Shown: one piece after another, positions 16,144 to 33,155 of the stretch
Layout of the letters: each line of letters opens with the position of its first letter
How positions within the stretch are numbered: the stretch's first letter is position 1
Origin: an uncultured Parvularculaceae bacterium
GTDB lineage: Bacteria > Pseudomonadota > Alphaproteobacteria > Caulobacterales > Parvularculaceae
Assembly (NCBI GenBank): GCA_938010655.1
Contig: CALLVA010000031.1
Location: 1-35,845, forward strand
Reading direction: 5' to 3'
DNA: 35,845 bases
The notes under the pieces: model-generated
Seen by the model: the letters and a program-made list of their open reading frames with translations, nothing else
Told to the model about the DNA's origin: nothing
Database searches by the model: none
Translations under genes and position numbers: made by a program

Positions 16144-19023
16144 ATGATTAGAATACGATATGCACTATTAGCGTGGATCGCTGTGGCATTTTTGGTGTTG
16201 CAAGCCTGTGCATCCCTCGACATCTCAAAAGATGAGGCCTCGTCAAACCCGGCCAGTCAACTTGCTAAAGTCTCAATGGACCCATGGGAGACCATACAGA
16301 TGCAAGGCGAGCCCACAGCGCGCCATGAAGCGGCATTGGTCGCGCTTGATAAGAAAATATATCTCATTGGGGGGAGGCGGCTTAATCCGGTTGATGTTCT
16401 GGACACAGAAACAATGACCTGGACACAGAAAGCACAAACGCCCATTGAAATTCATCACTTTCAAGCCGTGGCCGTTGAAGACAAGATTTATATTATTGGC
16501 GCAATGACAGGGCAGTGGCCAAATGAGACACCGCTTGAACAAGTTTTGATCTATTCTCCAGAAACAGACACGTATAAATTTGGCGCTGAAATTCCAGCAG
16601 AAAGACGGCGCGGCGGCGCGGGCGCTGTCTATAAGGATGGCAAAGTTTATGTGATAGGCGGCATTACCAATGGCCATATGGATGGATATGTGAATTGGTT
16701 TGATGTCTATGATGTTGAAACGGAAGAGTGGACAAAACTGCCAGATGCGCCGCATCGCCGGGATCATTTTCAAGCGGCCATTTCGGGCAACAAATTATAT
16801 GCATTTGCTGGGCGGCGCTCAGAGCAACGAGCGAATTTAGGGTTTGAACAAACTGTTATCCCCGGCAATGTCTTTGATTTTGCCACAGGTCAATGGGAAG
16901 AAAGCACGCAAACAACGAATATCCCTACGCCTCGCGCTGGCAATATGATGATTGCCCATCAGGGAAAAATTATCGTGGGTGGCGGCGAAAGCGGACTGCA
17001 AAAAGAATCTCATAATGAAGTTGAAGTTTTTGATTCTGAAAGTGCCACATGGTCTGCTTGGCCAGATTTAAAACAAGGTCGCCATGGATCTGGTTTTGTC
17101 ATTATTGATGATTATCTGTACACTGTTTCTGGATCTGGCAATCGGGGCGGCGGCCCGGAGCTTACAAGCATTGAGCGGCTGAAATTACCGGGCGCAAGCC
17201 CCAAGCCTCTGCTGGAAGCCAGTTTGGGCGAAAAGACCTTCTCTAAAGACGAGGTTGAAGGGCCGCAATTATGGCATACGCTCACCCTTGATTTTGAAGG
17301 GCCGACAACATCTGAAACTGACGAAAAAAATCCGTTTACAGATTACCGCTTATTGGTGGAATTTTCTAACGGTGAAACAACCTATTTAATACGTGGATTT
17401 TATGCAGCAGATGGCGATGCCGCTCAGACAAGCGCGACATCAGGTAATATTTGGCGGGTGAGATTTACACCGGATATTGTTGGGGAATGGCAATATAAAG
17501 CCACGCTAAAAACGGGGGACAAAATAGCGATTAGCCGCGATCCTTCAGTTGGTAGAAATATTGATATTCAAAAAGCCACAGGCACATTTACTGTTGTTCA
17601 GTCTACGGCAACAGGCAAAGATTTCAGAGCACCATTACGAGGCCGATTGCGCGCCGATGGCAAATTATTTCGCTTTGAAAAATCAGGCCAGTACTGGCTG
17701 AAAGGGGGCCCTAACAGCCCTGAAAACCTTCTGGGCTATACGGGCTTTGATGATACGTATCGATTGCTCAAAGAAAGCCGCGAAGGCGAGGCCAGCGCAG
17801 CAGGCGAGATTCATTCATTCGAACCGCACCGCCAGGATTGGAAAAAAGGCGATCCTTTATGGGGGCTGAAAACCGGAACCCCGCGCGGACACGCGATTAT
17901 CGGCGCGATGAATTATATTGAACAACAAGACATGAATGTCGTTTATTTTCTGACCAATAATATCAAAGGGGACGGTAATGATGTTTGGCCATATGCATCT
18001 CCAGATCAATTTGATCGATTTGATGTCAGTAAGTTGGCGCAGTGGAATATTCTATTTGATCATATGCAAGCCAAAGGAATTTTGTTGCATATGGTGACGC
18101 AAGAAACCGAAAATGAACTCATGTTAGATGGCGGCGAGACTCAATTTGAACGTCAATTATATTACAGTGAGTTGATATCGCGCTTCGGGCATCACCCCGC
18201 TTTAATCTGGAATTTGGGGGAGGAAAATGGCCCAGCCCATTGGTTGAATTATGGTCAGAATGATCAACAGCGCAAAGATATGGCAAAGTTCTTTGCTGAA
18301 AATGATCCGTATAACCACACAGTTGTCTTACATTCCCATGCCACACCCGGCGACATTGAAAAAATATTTACCCCGCTTTTGGGATATGCCCCATTAGATG
18401 GCATGTCTTTGCAATATCACAATGGCGAAGATGTTTTTGATGTGACCAGAGAATGGGCGAAAAAGTCTGAAGATGCGGGGAAAACATGGGTCATTTCTAT
18501 GGATGAAATCGGTCCTTGGTTTAATGGTGTGCAGCCAGATTCAATTGACGCTGATCATGATGAGGCTCGTCGGCATGTGCTCTGGGGACATCTTTTGGCT
18601 GGCGGCGCTGGGGTGGAGTGGTATTTCGGTAGCAAATTTTCCTCGAATGATATTTCCGCAGAAGATTGGCGAACGCGCCATAATTTATGGGCGCAGACAA
18701 AACATGCGCTCACGTTTTTTGAATCATATCTGCCTTATTGGGAAATGGGCGAGTGCGGCGGCAATACGATGGCGCGAGAAGATGTGTATTGTTTGGGCAA
18801 AGAGGGCGAAATTTATGCTTTCTACATGCCCGGTCGGGGGAGTTCCTACGTGACCCTTCCAGCAAACGGCACGGGCTACACCGTCGCATGGTATGACCCC
18901 AAAGCAGGCGGCGCGCTGCAGAGCGGTACGATCGCCACCTTAAAAGGGGGGGCATACGAATTCATCGGCCTTGCCCCAAATACAACAACACAAGATTGGG
19001 TGATCTTACTGCGGCAAAAATAA
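16144..19023 (+). CDS. Kelch-repeat + DUF5060 + glycoside-hydrolase-like lipoprotein
   Basis: A 959-residue predicted outer-membrane lipoprotein (lipobox LQAC, Cys22). Domains in order: Kelch beta-propeller at about 50-360, with repeated KIYLIGG, KIYIIG, KVYVIGG and KLYAFAG strands; a DUF5060-like beta-sandwich at about 370-475 (LWHTLTLDFEGP to WQYKATL); a TIM-barrel-like part at about 500-870; and a C-terminal beta domain at about 880-959. The probable acid/base is Glu693 or Glu694 in NLGEENG and a second candidate is Glu788 in SMDEIGPW, as in retaining glycosidases. DUF5060 proteins are usually polysaccharide-degrading enzymes. The substrate is unknown; a role in trimming or using a surface polysaccharide is inferred from location. 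Confidence 0.82.
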   Translation: MIRIRYALLAWIAVAFLVLQACASLDISKDEASSNPASQLAKVSMDPWETIQMQGEPTARHEAALVALDKKIYLIGGRRLNPVDVLDTETMTWTQKAQTPIEIHHFQAVAVEDKIYIIGAMTGQWPNETPLEQVLIYSPETDTYKFGAEIPAERRRGGAGAVYKDGKVYVIGGITNGHMDGYVNWFDVYDVETEEWTKLPDAPHRRDHFQAAISGNKLYAFAGRRSEQRANLGFEQTVIPGNVFDFATGQWEESTQTTNIPTPRAGNMMIAHQGKIIVGGGESGLQKESHNEVEVFDSESATWSAWPDLKQGRHGSGFVIIDDYLYTVSGSGNRGGGPELTSIERLKLPGASPKPLLEASLGEKTFSKDEVEGPQLWHTLTLDFEGPTTSETDEKNPFTDYRLLVEFSNGETTYLIRGFYAADGDAAQTSATSGNIWRVRFTPDIVGEWQYKATLKTGDKIAISRDPSVGRNIDIQKATGTFTVVQSTATGKDFRAPLRGRLRADGKLFRFEKSGQYWLKGGPNSPENLLGYTGFDDTYRLLKESREGEASAAGEIHSFEPHRQDWKKGDPLWGLKTGTPRGHAIIGAMNYIEQQDMNVVYFLTNNIKGDGNDVWPYASPDQFDRFDVSKLAQWNILFDHMQAKGILLHMVTQETENELMLDGGETQFERQLYYSELISRFGHHPALIWNLGEENGPAHWLNYGQNDQQRKDMAKFFAENDPYNHTVVLHSHATPGDIEKIFTPLLGYAPLDGMSLQYHNGEDVFDVTREWAKKSEDAGKTWVISMDEIGPWFNGVQPDSIDADHDEARRHVLWGHLLAGGAGVEWYFGSKFSSNDISAEDWRTRHNLWAQTKHALTFFESYLPYWEMGECGGNTMAREDVYCLGKEGEIYAFYMPGRGSSYVTLPANGTGYTVAWYDPKAGGALQSGTIATLKGGAYEFIGLAPNTTTQDWVILLRQK

Positions 19024-26484: not shown

Positions 26485-26617
26485 ATCGTTTCCTTCTTTT
26501 GCTGATGTCACGCTACCCACAAAATAGACCCTATTCAAGGCGTGAGGCGACACATGATAGGCTTTTGCACTTAAGGCCAATATGGCGTATCCTATTGTTT
26601 TACATTGGAGGATTAAG

Positions 26618-27070
26618 ATGGGTATTGGTAAAATGACAGTGTTTGGCATCGTCGCGCTTAGTATGCTAGCGGGCTGTGCGACCACCCCAACACCGGAAGA
26701 GATTTGCTCTACCGGGTGGATTTCTTCGCGAACAGATAAAGCTCAAGCTGAATTTCGGCGGGATGTCCGACCGATGCTCCGCACCTTTCGTAAGGCTGAA
26801 TCACAGCTTCAGAACGGCAATAGTTTAGGCTTTTTGCAAATGGCCAATGTGATGAGAGCGGTTGAGAAATTTATTGCGCGCGTCGAAGATAGCCGTGCTT
26901 TAGAAGATTTACGGTTGGTCGGTGAGACCTGTAATGATCCTGCGCTTGTCAACAAAGTGATGACAGAATTTTTGCAAGATGAAGGCGCGCCACAAGTTGT
27001 ACTTGATTTTATGAATAATCTAGACAGCTACAGAAACCTGCTTGTTGCGCCACCAAAGAGTGAGCTTTAA
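26618..27070 (+). CDS. small lipoprotein of unknown function
   Basis: A 150-residue predicted lipoprotein: short signal peptide with lipobox LAGC (Cys20), followed by ATTPT. The mature part is mostly helical with two cysteines (EEICSTG and GETCND). TGGAGGAT precedes the ATG at 26618. Its stop overlaps by four bases the stop of the convergent TpsB-like gene. No family is recognised; the periplasmic face of a membrane is the expected location. Confidence 0.75.
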   Translation: MGIGKMTVFGIVALSMLAGCATTPTPEEICSTGWISSRTDKAQAEFRRDVRPMLRTFRKAESQLQNGNSLGFLQMANVMRAVEKFIARVEDSRALEDLRLVGETCNDPALVNKVMTEFLQDEGAPQVVLDFMNNLDSYRNLLVAPPKSEL

Positions 27071-28737
27071 TAGCTGACAGATAAATCAAAACGGTGCCGT
27101 ATATCTTCATCATCTTCAGTATACGGCGCATCGGAAAGGGGCATAGCAGCTTCATAGGCTAAATTGCCCCAATTACCGAAGAAATATCTAACACCAAGTC
27201 CGGCGGAGGAAAGCCAAACGCCATCCGCTGGCGTTTCTTCGCCATGGTTCCAAATGGCACCACTGTCTATAAAGCCATAGCCTTCCCAGCGGTTGATCGG
27301 GCCAAGTTTTGACCCATGCAAAATCAACTCTGCAAAAGCGCCGCTACCGCTATCGCCGAGCACTTCCCCAAAATCATATCCGCGTCCATATTGTCCGCCG
27401 CCAATGCTAAATTCTTCGCTGAAGAGCAGGTCGTCATTCGCATATTGCCCGGAAAAGCCAACTTTGACACTGACGTTATCTGCCAAGAATTGTTGATGGG
27501 TCAATTCCGTATAGATTTTCGTAAATATGCCGTCTGCGCCTGGTCTTGATACGGCAGTATCTTGATTTTGGGTCGCTCCAAAAACATCAAGTCCTTGCGT
27601 AAATTCCAGAATGGCTGTTGATCGGTTATTATTCTTATGACGCTTCAAAAAGCCAAGGCGCGCTTTGGCCATGCGTATTTTGTCTCGATAAAGCAAAGCG
27701 CCATCTTCAAATTCTGTGACATCAGATGATTCGATTGAAAGATCAGCCCAAGCCCGCATTTTTGGATCAAATATCAATGGAATTTTGAGGCCCGCGCTGC
27801 CGCGATTAAGCTCTCCATATAGATTTCGGCCAATAAGCGCCGTTTTAGGTTCTGTTTGAGATTTTGTATAGCTGACATAAGCTCTGCTGTTTCGCCAAGC
27901 AGTAGGGGCTTCGTACCGCGCAGAAATATAGGTTAGTTCATCTATCGCTTTTGGTTTGGTCAGATACGATAGGCGAAAACTATCTCCAATACGTAATCCA
28001 GAATTCACTTGAAGCGCAACAAGGCCCTTTAAGTCTTCGCCCTCGCGGGAGCCCTTGTTTGTCAGGAAAAAAGTAGTCCTAATTTTCTGAAATTCTGTGT
28101 CGATGGTTAGAATATGCCCACCAATTATCTCAGGGTCTTCTTTTTGAACGACGTTTTTTATGATGAATCCATCAATATGTCGTAATCGGGATATGGCTAG
28201 GTCGAATGTCTTTTTGGTAACGGGTATTTCTTTTTGAACCTCGTTCATAATGCTGGTGACATCAATTGGACCTACATCGCCATATTGAACTTTGGAAACA
28301 AAACCTTCTTCCATTTTGATGATCAGTGTACCCTGGCGAGGTTGGTTTAGCGAAATTGATGCATGAGAAAGGAAATACCCTTTTTCTAAATATGCTTGAG
28401 TTACTTTATTCGCAAGGCTGCGCAAGTCAGAGACCGAAATCGGCTGATCAATATAGTCAGCGGAAAAACCTTTCAGCTCTTCAGTCGAGAAAATGGTATT
28501 TCCCTTAAAATGCATAGCGCTATATTGTAAAACGACTTCAGAATCTGTGGAGGCTGATGAAGCCTCATTAGACTTTGTAAAGCGGTCTAATTTTGGATTG
28601 TCGCTATTCGGGCGGTTTTGCGAAATTTCATCCGCATGGCCTAACGCATATTTTGATAAACCTTTAGCTTGAACCGGGCCTATAGCCACAAACAAAAAAG
28701 CGGCGCCCAAAACCGGTAACACTATACGCAGATGCAC
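27067..28737 (-). CDS. TpsB-type outer-membrane transporter (ShlB/FhaC/HecB family)
   Basis: A 556-residue outer-membrane protein of two-partner secretion systems, which export a large partner across the outer membrane. A signal peptide (1-24) is followed by a POTRA domain at about 70-147 (LQYSAMHFKGNTIFS), a second POTRA-like segment at 148-216, and a beta-barrel of about 340 residues. The conserved plug-loop tip is RGY at 452-454 in SIGGGQYGRGYDFGE. The last residue is Tyr, as usual for outer-membrane barrels. It is divergent from the FecR-repeat gene, the most likely cargo; no FHA-type TPS domain is seen in the window, so this pairing is inferred. Confidence 0.88.
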   Translation of the reverse strand: MHLRIVLPVLGAAFLFVAIGPVQAKGLSKYALGHADEISQNRPNSDNPKLDRFTKSNEASSASTDSEVVLQYSAMHFKGNTIFSTEELKGFSADYIDQPISVSDLRSLANKVTQAYLEKGYFLSHASISLNQPRQGTLIIKMEEGFVSKVQYGDVGPIDVTSIMNEVQKEIPVTKKTFDLAISRLRHIDGFIIKNVVQKEDPEIIGGHILTIDTEFQKIRTTFFLTNKGSREGEDLKGLVALQVNSGLRIGDSFRLSYLTKPKAIDELTYISARYEAPTAWRNSRAYVSYTKSQTEPKTALIGRNLYGELNRGSAGLKIPLIFDPKMRAWADLSIESSDVTEFEDGALLYRDKIRMAKARLGFLKRHKNNNRSTAILEFTQGLDVFGATQNQDTAVSRPGADGIFTKIYTELTHQQFLADNVSVKVGFSGQYANDDLLFSEEFSIGGGQYGRGYDFGEVLGDSGSGAFAELILHGSKLGPINRWEGYGFIDSGAIWNHGEETPADGVWLSSAGLGVRYFFGNWGNLAYEAAMPLSDAPYTEDDEDIRHRFDLSVSY

Positions 28738-28909
28738 AAGACATACTTTCTACAAACTCAACAATTTTACAATATTGCACTATAAACTTACCCATCTCCT
28801 AAAATGTAAAATAAATAGTTGGTAAACAGATTGTTAACTTAAAATTTTCGCTAAATCTTAATATTGGCTGTTTATTTATTAAAGAAATCGAGTTTGTAGG
28901 TGCCCCAAG
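28738..28909. promoter_or_regulatory. AT-rich divergent promoter region (TpsB / FecR-repeat genes)
   Basis: The 172 bp between the divergent genes are far richer in A and T than their neighbours, with many TTAA- and TAAAT-type runs. Both genes must start here. I cannot fix single -35 and -10 boxes with confidence. Confidence 0.5.
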
Positions 28910-30820
28910 ATGCGTATTATTTCTATCATTAGTTTTATGATTGCTGTTTGCTTTTCCCCCAATGCCTTGGCGGCAGAGGGAGACTCTTATTGGCAAATAA
29001 CTGTCGTTAAGGGATCTGTTTTAACCACTGGAAATAAGACGGCGCGTGTTGGGATGAAACTTAATGGTGGTGACTGGATCAAAACGGGTCCGAATAGTGC
29101 TACGACTCTAATGAGAGATGGCCAAAAAATCAGTCTTGGTGCCTCAGCGCAAATTGCTTTTCCTGAAAATACAAAAACGAAACGCACTGTTATTAGCCAA
29201 ATTTCAGGGGTCGCAAATTATAAAGTCGATAAGCGCAAACAACCCCATTTTGAAGTGAAGACGAAAATGGTCGCTGCTGTTGTAAAGGGAACAACTTTCA
29301 CAGTGGATGCGCATAGCACCAACCATAGCGTTAATGTAACAACAGGCATAGTTGAAGTCACTGCGCGGGATTTTAACGTTTCAAGGCGTGTAGAAGCAGG
29401 ACTAAAAGCCACGGTTAGGGCTGGAGGGAGATTGGAGATTGGTAAGAGCGCAGAAATTTCTGCGCTTCGTCAAGAAACGCTGCAACCGCAAGAGAGCAAG
29501 AACGACACGACAAAAGCTCAAGATGCGCCTGTTCAGGCAGCTGAAACTGATCTTGATAAGGGGCGCGAGACAGCCGTGCGGGTTTTGACGCAGCCAGCTG
29601 TTACCTCAACCGATCCAAATAGAGAACCAGCGCCAGCTGATCCTGAGCCTGTGCCTGTTGCGCCAACGCCAACAACAGAACCAGTGACCACACCCGATAC
29701 AGATATCCGTGTCACACCAGATCCTAGTCCGATAATGCCCCTTGATCCGGAGACAGACCCTCAAGGCGAAACTGATCCAGTAGTTGATCCAGTGGTCGCT
29801 CCGGTAGTGACTCCCGTGCTTGATCCAGCGCCGTCAAATACGAATACAAGCAGTGATCCGAGTAATGATATTACGGGTGAAAATAATTCAGTGGCAGGGT
29901 TCCGAAACACTCTCATCGGAAATGGGAATACTATTTTCAAAGATGAAAATCATATCACTGGTGATGAAAATAAAATTGATGGCAATGGGAATTCAGTTTC
30001 CGGGAATGGAAACACGATCTATGGCGCAAACATAATTGCGGATGCGGCGGATGATGTGCCTCAACCCGGCGATGACGATGCTAAGATTATCGAAAACGGC
30101 AATGACAATACTATTTTCGGTGATCGAAATGAATTGATGGGGGCAGAAAACGCCATCACCGGCAATGATAACCGTGTCTTTGGAAATAATAACACGCTGC
30201 AAAGCCTTGGCGACAATGTTGCCGTCAATAACTATGTCCGTGGTGTTTGGAATAATATCGAAGGCAGTGAAAATACGGTATATGGCGATCAGAATTATAT
30301 TCGTGGAAATCAAAATAGTATTATAGGAAATGGTAATTCTATTACCGGGTCAGAAAATGAAATTACGGGCGACTCGAATGTCATTAATGGAAACCTTAAC
30401 ACGCTGACTGGGGATATGAACGATATTAATGGCAATGCGAATAGTATTGATGGAAATAGTAATATTATCAGCGGAAATGCGAACGAAATTGATGGAAAAA
30501 AAGGAAACATTTCAGGGAACGAAAATATTCTAGATGGTGATTACGGTGTGATTGTTGGAAACGGCAATGATGTTGGTGGTCAGAATGCTAATGTGACTGG
30601 AAATAGAAATAACATTGATGGGAACAGTGTGGAAATTACAGGTAATCTCAATGTCGCAAATGGACATGAAATTCTTATCGATGGAAACAACAATCAAGTT
30701 AACGGAAACGCAAACGAATTAATTGGGAATAACAGTGCTATCCAAGGTAACTCAAATATTCTGCAGGGTGATGATCTCTTAATTTTGGGGGATAATATAA
30801 AATTTAGAAACCCGAATTAG
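28910..30820 (+). CDS. exported FecR-domain protein with a heptad-repeat (Asn/Gly) solenoid
   Basis: A 636-residue exported protein. Signal peptide 1-22 (ends in LAA); FecR domain at about 25-180, including the family's VVKGTTFTV segment at 124-132; a Pro/Asp-rich linker at about 230-318; then from residue 320 about 40 tandem seven-residue units of the form N-x-[I/V/L]-x-G-[N/D]-x, to the C-terminus. There is no membrane helix or barrel. Regularly placed Ile/Val and Gly suggest a beta-solenoid, recalling YadA-type head repeats; that fold is inferred. FecR domains in stand-alone proteins often sit with CHASE2 sensors, as here. TAGGTG precedes the ATG. The TpsB gene opposite suggests outer-membrane export. 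Confidence 0.85.
   Translation: MRIISIISFMIAVCFSPNALAAEGDSYWQITVVKGSVLTTGNKTARVGMKLNGGDWIKTGPNSATTLMRDGQKISLGASAQIAFPENTKTKRTVISQISGVANYKVDKRKQPHFEVKTKMVAAVVKGTTFTVDAHSTNHSVNVTTGIVEVTARDFNVSRRVEAGLKATVRAGGRLEIGKSAEISALRQETLQPQESKNDTTKAQDAPVQAAETDLDKGRETAVRVLTQPAVTSTDPNREPAPADPEPVPVAPTPTTEPVTTPDTDIRVTPDPSPIMPLDPETDPQGETDPVVDPVVAPVVTPVLDPAPSNTNTSSDPSNDITGENNSVAGFRNTLIGNGNTIFKDENHITGDENKIDGNGNSVSGNGNTIYGANIIADAADDVPQPGDDDAKIIENGNDNTIFGDRNELMGAENAITGNDNRVFGNNNTLQSLGDNVAVNNYVRGVWNNIEGSENTVYGDQNYIRGNQNSIIGNGNSITGSENEITGDSNVINGNLNTLTGDMNDINGNANSIDGNSNIISGNANEIDGKKGNISGNENILDGDYGVIVGNGNDVGGQNANVTGNRNNIDGNSVEITGNLNVANGHEILIDGNNNQVNGNANELIGNNSAIQGNSNILQGDDLLILGDNIKFRNPN
29867..30817 (+). repeat. coding tandem repeat: heptads of the FecR protein
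   Basis: About 40 consecutive 21-base units encoding N-x-[I/V/L]-x-G-[N/D]-x. The frame is interrupted by two non-repeat inserts: one at about 30028-30085 (IADAADDVPQPGDDDAK) and a shorter one at about 30197-30230. DNA of the units is diverged though the protein pattern is kept. Confidence 0.9.
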
Positions 30821-30863
30821 TGTAGCGCTTTTGACTATAAAGCTAAAATTGTGATGCAATCTT

Positions 30864-33155
30864 ATGGATAAGCGGATACTTAAAATATGGCCGACGTCGC
30901 ATCTTGCGAGAAAGTGGGTTATTGGTTGGTCCGTTATTGTGGTTTTCGCGATCCTGATTTGGCGATCCGCTTTTGTTTCATTCGATTACACAATATCAGA
31001 TGTTTGGGCTAAAATTTTACAACATGACCCTTCAGGGCAATCTGTTGTCGTCGCTATTGATTCTAAAAGCTTGCAGGAAAATCGTGAATGGCCTTGGAGC
31101 CGAGATGTTCATGGCAAGCTTGTCGACACATTAGATGGATTGGGTGTTAAAAGCGTTGCTTTTGATATTGATTTCAGTGCACCGCGCGCTGATGGGGGCG
31201 ACGTTCTTTTTGGTGATGCCATTGCTCGGGCAAGCGCCCCTGTTTATTTGGCAACCTTTCGTGCGCCGCTCTCTGCTGAAATGCCGGACATATATGCTGA
31301 GATGTGGCCGAATGAGGATATACGACATGGCGCAGTTCCAGTTTCTGTCAATTATATACCGGAAACGTCTGGGTTTTTAAGGTATTTCTACAGTACAACA
31401 GAGTTCAGTACAGAAACGCTTCAGTCAATGCCGGTTGCAGCCTCTGGCGTCAGGCCATCAGAAAATGTTCAAGCTTTTAACTACGCCACCAATATAAGGC
31501 GTATACCGTATTATTCTTATGTGGATGTATTAAATGGAACAGTACCAAAGGAAGCCCTTGAAGGAAAAACGATTTTCGTTGGCGCAACTGCTGTAGAGCT
31601 GGGCGATGAATATGCTTTACCTGTTTACGGCATTCAAAGCGGTGTCTTGCTCAATGTTATAGCATTTGAAAATTTGGTATTAGGGAATATTCTGGAAGTT
31701 GCGACGTCCTATATATCACTCATCCTGCTTGGTATCATGTTCGCAATTGTTGGAATTAACTCCAGTCAAAAGCCACAAAGGCGTTGGGTTGGATATGGTG
31801 TCTTAATTGTCAGTATTGCCGCCTTTTCATTGATGATGCAGGGCGTCTTCCATATCATCATACCTGTTGTTGGCGTGATGCTTTGCCTCTTTTCTCTGAT
31901 GGCTGTTGATGTGATGTATGTGTTGCATGCGCATCAATTATTGGCTTTCAGAGGTAAGGTGGCCGCGCGCGAATCGCAATTAATCACCCAGTCGCTTGTC
32001 TCCGAAAATCACGAAGGCATTATCGCTCTGAACCGATATGGTGAGATCGATATGGTCAATATAAGAGCCGCTGAATTGCTTGATATTACAAACCTAGCGA
32101 AAGGCGCAAAGTTAGCAGAACTGGCGGTAGATTTTTGTAATCATATTGACTTGGAACAAACCTTACTTAAGCCTGCGTCAAACCATGAATATAGCTACTA
32201 TACCGCTCTTGGAAAATTAGTGGCCTTAGATGTAAATATCAGTACCCTGAAAATAGATCCAGTTGATAGTCGTTTTGAACAACGCACAGAGCCACGCCAT
32301 GTCACCATTATTGGCCTTCATGATGTTTCGGCTCAACGTTTGGCGGCAGAAGCGGAGCGAGAAGCCAAAGAGGCACATGCCGCGATTTCGGCTGCAAAAT
32401 CACAATTGATTTCCACCATGACCCATGAATTGCGGACCCCGCTTAATTCAATCATCGGCTTTTCGGATATTATTAAAGCGGAAATGTTTGGGCCAAGTGG
32501 CGCTGATGAATATGTTGAATATTCCACGATGATTAATTCAAGCGGTCGCCAGCTTTTGGGTGTCGTGAATGATATGATGCTCGCGGCGCGGCTTCAATCT
32601 CATGAATTAGATCCAGTGATTGACGCCACTTCATTGAACGAAGTGTTCGAAGCGGCGATTGATGACGCGCAAATGAAAATGACATGGCGAGATCAACAGA
32701 TTGATTTGCTCCATGCTGATGGCGATGCCAGCCTCTTAATGGATGCGCAATTGATGCAGACCGCTCTTTCTCAACTTATCGATAATGCGGCAAAATTTGG
32801 TGGTGCCACTGGCACGATCCGCATTAGAACGGGATATGTGGATGGGGCGTTTGAAATCAGTATTCGGGATGAAGGGGAGGGGTGCGACCCGGCATTGCTC
32901 TCGGAGATCACGGATATGTTCAAGCAAGGAGACAGCACCTTACAGCGCAGCTTTGAGGGGTGCGGTCTGGGGTTGTATCTCGTGCAGGAAATCGTTGACT
33001 TGCACCATGGCAAACTCATCTTGCATTCGGGTGAAACTGGCGGTTTCACAGCGCGGATCAGGCTATGTGAAGCCGTGCCAAACGCGCAACTTACGGATGA
33101 AGCTGATGCTGATGAAGCATCTTTAGATGATCTCGAAACCGCTATTGCTTCCTGA
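30864..33155 (+). CDS. CHASE2-domain sensor histidine kinase
   Basis: A 763-residue inner-membrane kinase. An N-terminal helix (about 17-36) precedes an extracytoplasmic CHASE2 domain at about 37-265 (VVVAIDSKSLQENREWPWSRDVHGKL), then three helices at about 280-355, a PAS-like segment at about 370-490, HisKA with His521 (MTHELRTPLN), and an ATPase domain with the N box Asn641, G1 DEGEG at 669-673 and G2 GCGLG at 699-703. All kinase motifs are present. It starts 43 bases after the FecR gene, so they are probably co-transcribed. No response regulator gene lies in the window. No clear Shine-Dalgarno sequence is seen before the ATG. Confidence 0.9.
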   Translation: MDKRILKIWPTSHLARKWVIGWSVIVVFAILIWRSAFVSFDYTISDVWAKILQHDPSGQSVVVAIDSKSLQENREWPWSRDVHGKLVDTLDGLGVKSVAFDIDFSAPRADGGDVLFGDAIARASAPVYLATFRAPLSAEMPDIYAEMWPNEDIRHGAVPVSVNYIPETSGFLRYFYSTTEFSTETLQSMPVAASGVRPSENVQAFNYATNIRRIPYYSYVDVLNGTVPKEALEGKTIFVGATAVELGDEYALPVYGIQSGVLLNVIAFENLVLGNILEVATSYISLILLGIMFAIVGINSSQKPQRRWVGYGVLIVSIAAFSLMMQGVFHIIIPVVGVMLCLFSLMAVDVMYVLHAHQLLAFRGKVAARESQLITQSLVSENHEGIIALNRYGEIDMVNIRAAELLDITNLAKGAKLAELAVDFCNHIDLEQTLLKPASNHEYSYYTALGKLVALDVNISTLKIDPVDSRFEQRTEPRHVTIIGLHDVSAQRLAAEAEREAKEAHAAISAAKSQLISTMTHELRTPLNSIIGFSDIIKAEMFGPSGADEYVEYSTMINSSGRQLLGVVNDMMLAARLQSHELDPVIDATSLNEVFEAAIDDAQMKMTWRDQQIDLLHADGDASLLMDAQLMQTALSQLIDNAAKFGGATGTIRIRTGYVDGAFEISIRDEGEGCDPALLSEITDMFKQGDSTLQRSFEGCGLGLYLVQEIVDLHHGKLILHSGETGGFTARIRLCEAVPNAQLTDEADADEASLDDLETAIAS

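Follow-up and report, generated by a model that had tools for sequence, protein, structure and literature searches.

In Sinorhizobium meliloti, CHASE2 cyclases are reported to depend on NsrA, a predicted outer-membrane beta-barrel protein with the barrel at residues 600–1200, for receiving a signal from an external protein (PMC7529298, PMC13001267). In the Campylobacterota, genes of CHASE2 cyclases are clustered with that of an outer membrane protein bearing a FecR domain, and a single pathway was proposed for these components (PMC9239204). Besides that, the BiofilmReg operon of Burkholderia encodes a LysM-FecR protein and a CHASE2-PAS histidine kinase (PMC5192318). What CHASE2 domains sense has been stated to be unknown (PMC5192318). 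Here, we analyzed a locus in which genes for an exported FecR-domain protein and a CHASE2 histidine kinase lie next to the gene of a transporter of the two-partner secretion type (TpsB). No description of such a FecR-TpsB-CHASE2 triad was found in the open-access papers searched. The arrangement is apparently new to the literature and appears to represent a variant of CHASE2/FecR outer-membrane signalling in which the barrel is a true TpsB.

The analyzed stretch of DNA (35,845 nucleotides, hereafter the window) is an entire contig from a marine alphaproteobacterium of the Parvularculaceae, whose assembly comprises 2.19 Mb and is 78.5% complete. The TpsB/Omp85 outer-membrane transporter is encoded on the minus strand (27067..28737, 556 aa), and a divergent intergenic region of 172 bp (28738..28909) separates it from the gene of the exported FecR-domain protein with a repeat tail (28910..30820, plus strand, 636 aa). 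After a gap of 43 bp, the gene of the CHASE2 sensor histidine kinase follows on the same strand (30864..33155, 763 aa). Coordinates and strands agree with the initial annotation, which had described a TpsB gene divergent from the FecR gene and a CHASE2 kinase gene 43 bases further on. The neighbours of the FecR gene in the window are TpsB, the CHASE2 kinase and accA, and no response regulator gene adjoins the kinase gene, which weighs against a signalling role of the trio. The locus shares with BiofilmReg an exported FecR-domain protein encoded next to a CHASE2 histidine kinase, but BiofilmReg has LysM in place of the repeat tail, an adjacent response regulator and no TpsB. Similarly, the Campylobacterota clusters group a CHASE2 sensor with a FecR-domain outer-membrane protein, whereas their output is a cyclase, phosphodiesterase and TPR partners are present and no TpsB was described (PMC9239204).

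The transporter of the window is a bona fide TpsB, canonical in sequence and predicted fold. Pfam matches to POTRA_2 (53 bits) and ShlB (69 bits) were both above cut-off, and the AlphaFold2 model, computed from an input alignment of 30 rows (mean pLDDT 82.5), comprises an H1 helix (aa 22–40), two POTRA domains (about aa 69–152 and 153–216) and a barrel of 16 strands (aa 219–555). The L6 motif of the [VG]RGY type is present as GRGYD (aa 451–455) and the FxDxG motif as FIDSG (aa 489–493); G451, R452, Y454, D455 and D491 are invariant and F489 and G493 nearly invariant in the 30-row alignment. The top PDB matches of the model found with Foldseek were CdiB (6wim/6wil) and FhaC (4ql0/4qky). The likeness to two-partner secretion ends with the transporter: the window lacks a TPS-domain cargo, the FecR gene is divergent instead of co-directional, and the set includes a sensor kinase.

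By inspection, the FecR protein starts with a signal peptide, directly followed by the FecR domain (29078..29356, plus strand, aa 57–149; Pfam 47 bits) with the conserved core VAAVVKGTTF. The model of this domain matches the anti-sigma structure 4m0n and the cell-surface-signalling domain of PupR (6ovk) in Foldseek. The domain thereby resembles the periplasmic signalling domain of PupR, a domain in communication with a barrel protein of the outer membrane, as in the FecA-FecR and PupB-PupR systems; unlike in these systems, the FecR protein begins with the signal peptide in place of an anti-sigma N-terminus, neither a sigma factor gene nor a TonB receptor gene adjoins it, and the proposed inner-membrane partner is CHASE2. 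A Pro/Asp/Glu-rich linker follows (29456..29845, plus strand, about aa 183–312), which is predicted to be disordered (pLDDT mostly below 50) and is hypervariable in length in the alignment of relatives.

The remainder of the protein (29846..30817, plus strand) is a tail of 7/14-residue N-x-[IVL]-x-G repeats with a conserved RGVWNNI segment. Its self-identity is 0.29–0.32 at lags of 7, 14, 21 and 28 residues versus 0.04–0.13 at other lags. No 21/42-bp tandem array was detected in the DNA of the tail, and the repeat is therefore old. Pfam assigned four stretches (78 bits) to PF21300 (LbR_Ice_bind, 'grass antifreeze beta roll'), and, among proteins of solved structure, the tail is closest in sequence to LpIBP, an ice-binding protein from grass (3ult, E 9e-8, phmmer), with which it shares the N-x-V-x-G type of repeat, the left-handedness of the roll being assumed from the family. 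AlphaFold placed short strands every seven residues at moderate confidence (pLDDT mostly 70–79); with this moderate-confidence tail, Foldseek matches of the full FecR model at E <= 0.001 covered only the FecR domain, and 3ult was absent from the top 50. The roll also resembles a trimeric autotransporter head. Ice binding is not favoured as a function despite the family match, as side chains of mixed type flank the core, the tail as a whole is strongly acidic and the roll is missing in most relatives.

Next, we considered the cargo of the transporter. Pfam found no TPS domain in the FecR protein, and a search for TPS-domain (PF05860) proteins returned none in the window's own assembly (78.5% complete, as above), in genome G020, which is 99% complete and carries two FecR-linked TpsBs, or in the 100% complete genome G009. 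A classical TPS cargo encoded elsewhere in the genome was consequently discarded as a candidate, and the TPS-domain cargo that defines classical two-partner secretion is missing here. Since no other cargo was found, the FecR protein is, by elimination, the obvious partner of TpsB. The gene neighbourhoods described below point in the same direction, and we infer from both that the FecR protein may be the TpsB cargo. The absence of an FHA-type TPS domain had already been recorded in the initial annotation, which took the pairing to be unusual; the absence was confirmed, but the pairing is no local oddity and recurs across many alphaproteobacterial families.

This recurrence was revealed by a synteny survey. 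The best-matching TpsBs of related genomes adjoin a divergent FecR gene, most of them with a CHASE2 gene behind FecR. A scan of named genomes yielded 54 loci, nearly all with a FecR gene and most also with a CHASE2 gene, from Parvularcula, Marinicaulis, Kiloniellaceae, Rhodospirillales, Brevundimonas, Hwanghaeella, Sphingomonas, Sphingobium, Novosphingobium and one Microvirga-labelled record. A phylum-wide TpsB search, with the neighbourhoods of 40 matches, served as contrast set. Altogether, FecR adjoined 73/109 TpsB rows, always on the opposite strand (73/73), and 63 of these 73 carried a CHASE2 gene within 4.5 kb. A TPS cargo gene adjoined 19/109 rows, always on the same strand; 16/109 had neither neighbour, and one had only a CHASE2 gene, at a contig edge. 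FecR and TPS cargo never occurred beside the same TpsB (0/109). Among the 105 non-redundant TpsBs, the corresponding numbers were 69 with FecR, 19 with TPS cargo, 16 with neither and one with CHASE2 only. As the sample was picked by similarity to the TpsB of the window, these counts show how the genes associate with and exclude each other and do not measure how frequent the arrangements are. Where these genomes also encode TpsBs of other types (e.g. G009, G010, G016, G021), no FecR gene adjoins them. Genome G021 contains a FecR-TpsB pair without an adjoining CHASE2 gene, which is a point against reading the three genes as a triad.

A maximum-likelihood tree of the 105 TpsBs places those linked to FecR in a single clade (SH-aLRT 99), and the sole row inside this clade without FecR is truncated by a contig end. 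Pairwise distances of the FecR domain, TpsB and the CHASE2 sensor correlate at r = 0.92–0.93 across 61 loci, compared with r = 0.71–0.73 for the same distances versus the CHASE2 output part; joint inheritance of linked genes alone would explain part of this co-divergence. Synteny, the single origin of the TpsB clade and co-divergence strongly support the proposal of the initial annotation that the three genes belong to a single system, and the co-occurrence survey suggested there gave the 73 FecR and 63 CHASE2 neighbours reported above. We conclude that the FecR-TpsB-CHASE2 trio is a well-supported conserved module across many alphaproteobacterial families. Adjacency by chance or mere co-regulation, without a joint function, could be argued from the fact that FecR and CHASE2 are each common families and that the other CHASE2 proteins of the same bacterial family are mostly beside neither FecR nor TpsB. 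However, order and orientation are conserved across many families with an origin in one clade, TPS cargo is mutually exclusive with FecR, and CHASE2 has been re-attached on either side of the pair. The survey therefore rejects this explanation, to which we assign hardly any probability.

The CHASE2 protein of the window combines an extracytoplasmic CHASE2 sensor domain (30939..31730, plus strand, aa 26–289; Pfam 100 bits) with HisKA and HATPase_c domains, as is typical of a sensor histidine kinase. A histidine kinase output is also found in close kin and in Kiloniellaceae/Rhodospirillales; the partner at locus L159 has the same CHASE2-HisKA-HATPase_c order and, in addition, matches a receiver domain weakly. 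The output is EAL, with GGDEF recognisable or not, in sphingomonads and a Brevundimonas-like group, and PAS-GGDEF-EAL in two further families. In many sphingomonads, the CHASE2 gene is located directly behind TpsB (0–12 bp) instead of behind FecR. CHASE2 thus stays in the set despite the changed gene order, following FecR at some loci and TpsB at others. Given the variable outputs and the shifting position of the gene, the constant part of the module consists of FecR, TpsB and the CHASE2 sensor.

This constancy bears on the possibility that the locus serves secretion only. The FecR protein would then be a TpsB-secreted surface protein (an adhesin or an ice/surface-binding roll), its FecR domain would replace the TPS domain as the secretion signal, and CHASE2 would merely regulate expression. 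Such a role would agree with the canonical fold and motifs of TpsB, the mutual exclusivity of FecR and TPS cargo as its neighbours, and the placement of the FecR domain right after the signal peptide, the usual position of a TPS domain. The tails are variable and Cys-free, as in exported proteins, and the roll has counterparts in the head of a trimeric autotransporter and in an ice-binding protein. However, FecR domains are signalling modules in known systems and are found with CHASE2 in the absence of TpsB (PMC5192318), and at most loci the CHASE2 gene is kept with the pair despite its changing output, which fits direct coupling better than regulation. On balance, we regard a purely secretory role as rather unlikely.

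We slightly favour the view that FecR, TpsB and CHASE2 constitute one signalling module from the outer to the inner membrane, with the tail handled or exported by TpsB and the FecR domain reporting to CHASE2. The FecR protein would use Sec to cross the inner membrane and keep its FecR domain in the periplasm, where this domain could contact the POTRA domains of TpsB as well as the CHASE2 domain, which is also periplasmic. The linker and the low-complexity or beta-roll tail would interact with the barrel of TpsB and most likely reach the cell surface through it. Depending on whether the tail is blocked, exported or externally bound, the contact between the FecR domain and CHASE2 might then change, and this contact would set the output activity, namely that of a histidine kinase here and of c-di-GMP enzymes in other lineages. 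For the trio, we infer from these arrangements that the proteins touch, that the tail is exported and in which direction the signal runs; the arrangements suggest that the FecR protein signals to the CHASE2 kinase, for which NsrA and the CHASE2 cyclases are a close precedent. The trio probably informs the cell of events at its outer surface.

A more specific version of this signalling model is offered tentatively, at somewhat less than even chances. Here, a TpsB lineage would have swapped its TPS cargo for a FecR-tethered probe, and CHASE2 would read the status of the surface or outer membrane through the Omp85 barrel, with exchangeable outputs. The tail would occupy or pass the TpsB barrel, leaving the FecR domain behind as a CHASE2 ligand. 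Sensing through an Omp85 barrel would be comparable to RcsF, which reads status via BamA. The conserved triad with its swappable outputs points to two candidates, namely the FecR domain as periplasmic ligand of CHASE2 and a TpsB clade lacking TPS cargo as the input at the outer membrane. Many alphaproteobacterial genes annotated as 'ShlB/FhaC/HecB hemolysin secretion protein' are probably parts of signalling modules and not involved in hemolysin secretion.

The tails themselves differ strongly between clades. The beta-roll is confined to one TpsB subclade, comprising the window and the loci L027, L028, L030, L031, L048, L049 and L029/L042, the last two probably being a single locus divided between two contigs. 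Parvularculaceae harbour two TpsB subclades, and the tail type tracks the subclade. In other clades, and in most relatives, the tails are Gly/Asn-rich or Ala/Lys-rich, and their lengths range from about 140 to more than 700 residues. The roll was consequently rejected as a universal feature of the module, and so was PF21300 as its marker (6/385 class-level genomes matched, two of them above cut-off). The premise of the initial annotation that TpsB exports a beta-helical partner does not hold as a general rule for the module, and a common export route is not obvious because the tails are so different; those rich in Ala/Lys might be rods within the periplasm. The mature FecR protein of the window has no Cys, and in 68/69 FecR proteins no Cys occurs from the FecR domain onward. 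Together with the very variable linkers, this fits a threaded or exposed segment; the Cys argument is weak because TpsB proteins are Cys-poor, too.

In most relatives without the roll (e.g. L051, L061, L089), a T-[DNG]-G-L-[VA] motif follows the FecR domain, and it is absent from the FecR proteins of the roll clade. FecR proteins of Sphingomonas (e.g. L087:6871-9594, L080:7314-9788) contain, in place of the roll, several hundred residues of an Ala/Lys/Asp-rich helical repeat with up to 45% A, possibly forming a periplasm-spanning or surface coil.

Tail length and composition also touch on a further alternative, in which TpsB is an outer-membrane receptor and no longer a channel, and the wholly periplasmic FecR protein uses its tail as a rod or tether bridging POTRA and CHASE2. 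The Ala/Lys-rich helical tails of sphingomonads do look like periplasm-spanning linkers, and NsrA-type proteins, which fuse FecR-TPR to a barrel-like C-terminus, work with CHASE2 cyclases. The range of tail lengths is odd for a bridge of fixed span, however, and the secretion hallmarks of TpsB (POTRA pair, H1 helix, L6 RGYD motif, FxDxG) are all kept, so that we consider this role distinctly improbable.

NsrA and its adenylate cyclase partners CyaK, CyaD1 and CyaD2 can also be compared with the signalling module favoured above. Both combine an outer-membrane barrel with an inner-membrane CHASE2 protein, an external signal being passed inward in S. meliloti and, as proposed here, in the module. 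In proteins of the NsrA type, however, the FecR, TPR and barrel-like parts form one polypeptide and the output is a cyclase, while the window encodes the FecR domain and the outer-membrane barrel beside CHASE2 as two separate proteins, the latter a true TpsB, and a histidine kinase. Fused forms also occur in Parvularculaceae: a 1172-aa FecR and TPR protein (L116:133-4897) with a barrel-like C-terminal half ending in VRF, for which Pfam named no barrel family, is encoded 4 bp upstream of a CHASE2 gene. Further cases were found at L202:1250-6367 and, truncated, in L203. Homologues on Sinorhizobium/Ensifer plasmids, including S. meliloti pSymB (L197:7025-12648), lie immediately upstream of a CHASE2 gene, which they abut or overlap; neither a ShlB/POTRA domain nor a repeat tail was found in the Sinorhizobium FecR-TPR proteins. 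The proteins of L116, L202 and pSymB are candidate NsrA-type receptors. The combination of FecR and an outer-membrane barrel beside CHASE2 thus exists in fused and split forms, which supports the signalling reading.

In addition, two plasmids show that the association between TpsB and CHASE2 is broader than the FecR form. On plasmid AZO_p3 of Azospirillum lipoferum (L196:4752-8641), a TpsB gene is located directly behind a CHASE2-guanylate cyclase gene; no FecR gene was detected beside this pair, upstream of which a 235-aa hypothetical protein is encoded, and this counts against a triad model centred on FecR. On a Nostoc plasmid (L198:563-12763), genes for a CHAT-CHASE2 protein, for DUF928 and for two proteins with TPS domains cluster with a TpsB gene, which amounts to a CHASE2-TPS association in a cyanobacterium.

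Convergent with TpsB, a small lipoprotein is encoded on the plus strand (26582..27070, likely start at 26618, lipobox LAGC). Its one homologue is weak (L041:2653-3189, E 2e-5) and lies close to FecR-CHASE2 in G021 (L041:2653-7006), and none was found in the remaining FecR-TpsB-CHASE2 clusters. It was therefore rejected as a fourth conserved gene of the module and is possibly an accessory at most. At 16144-19023, the window encodes a 959-aa protein with Kelch repeats and a DUF5060 domain, which is likely a secreted carbohydrate-active protein.
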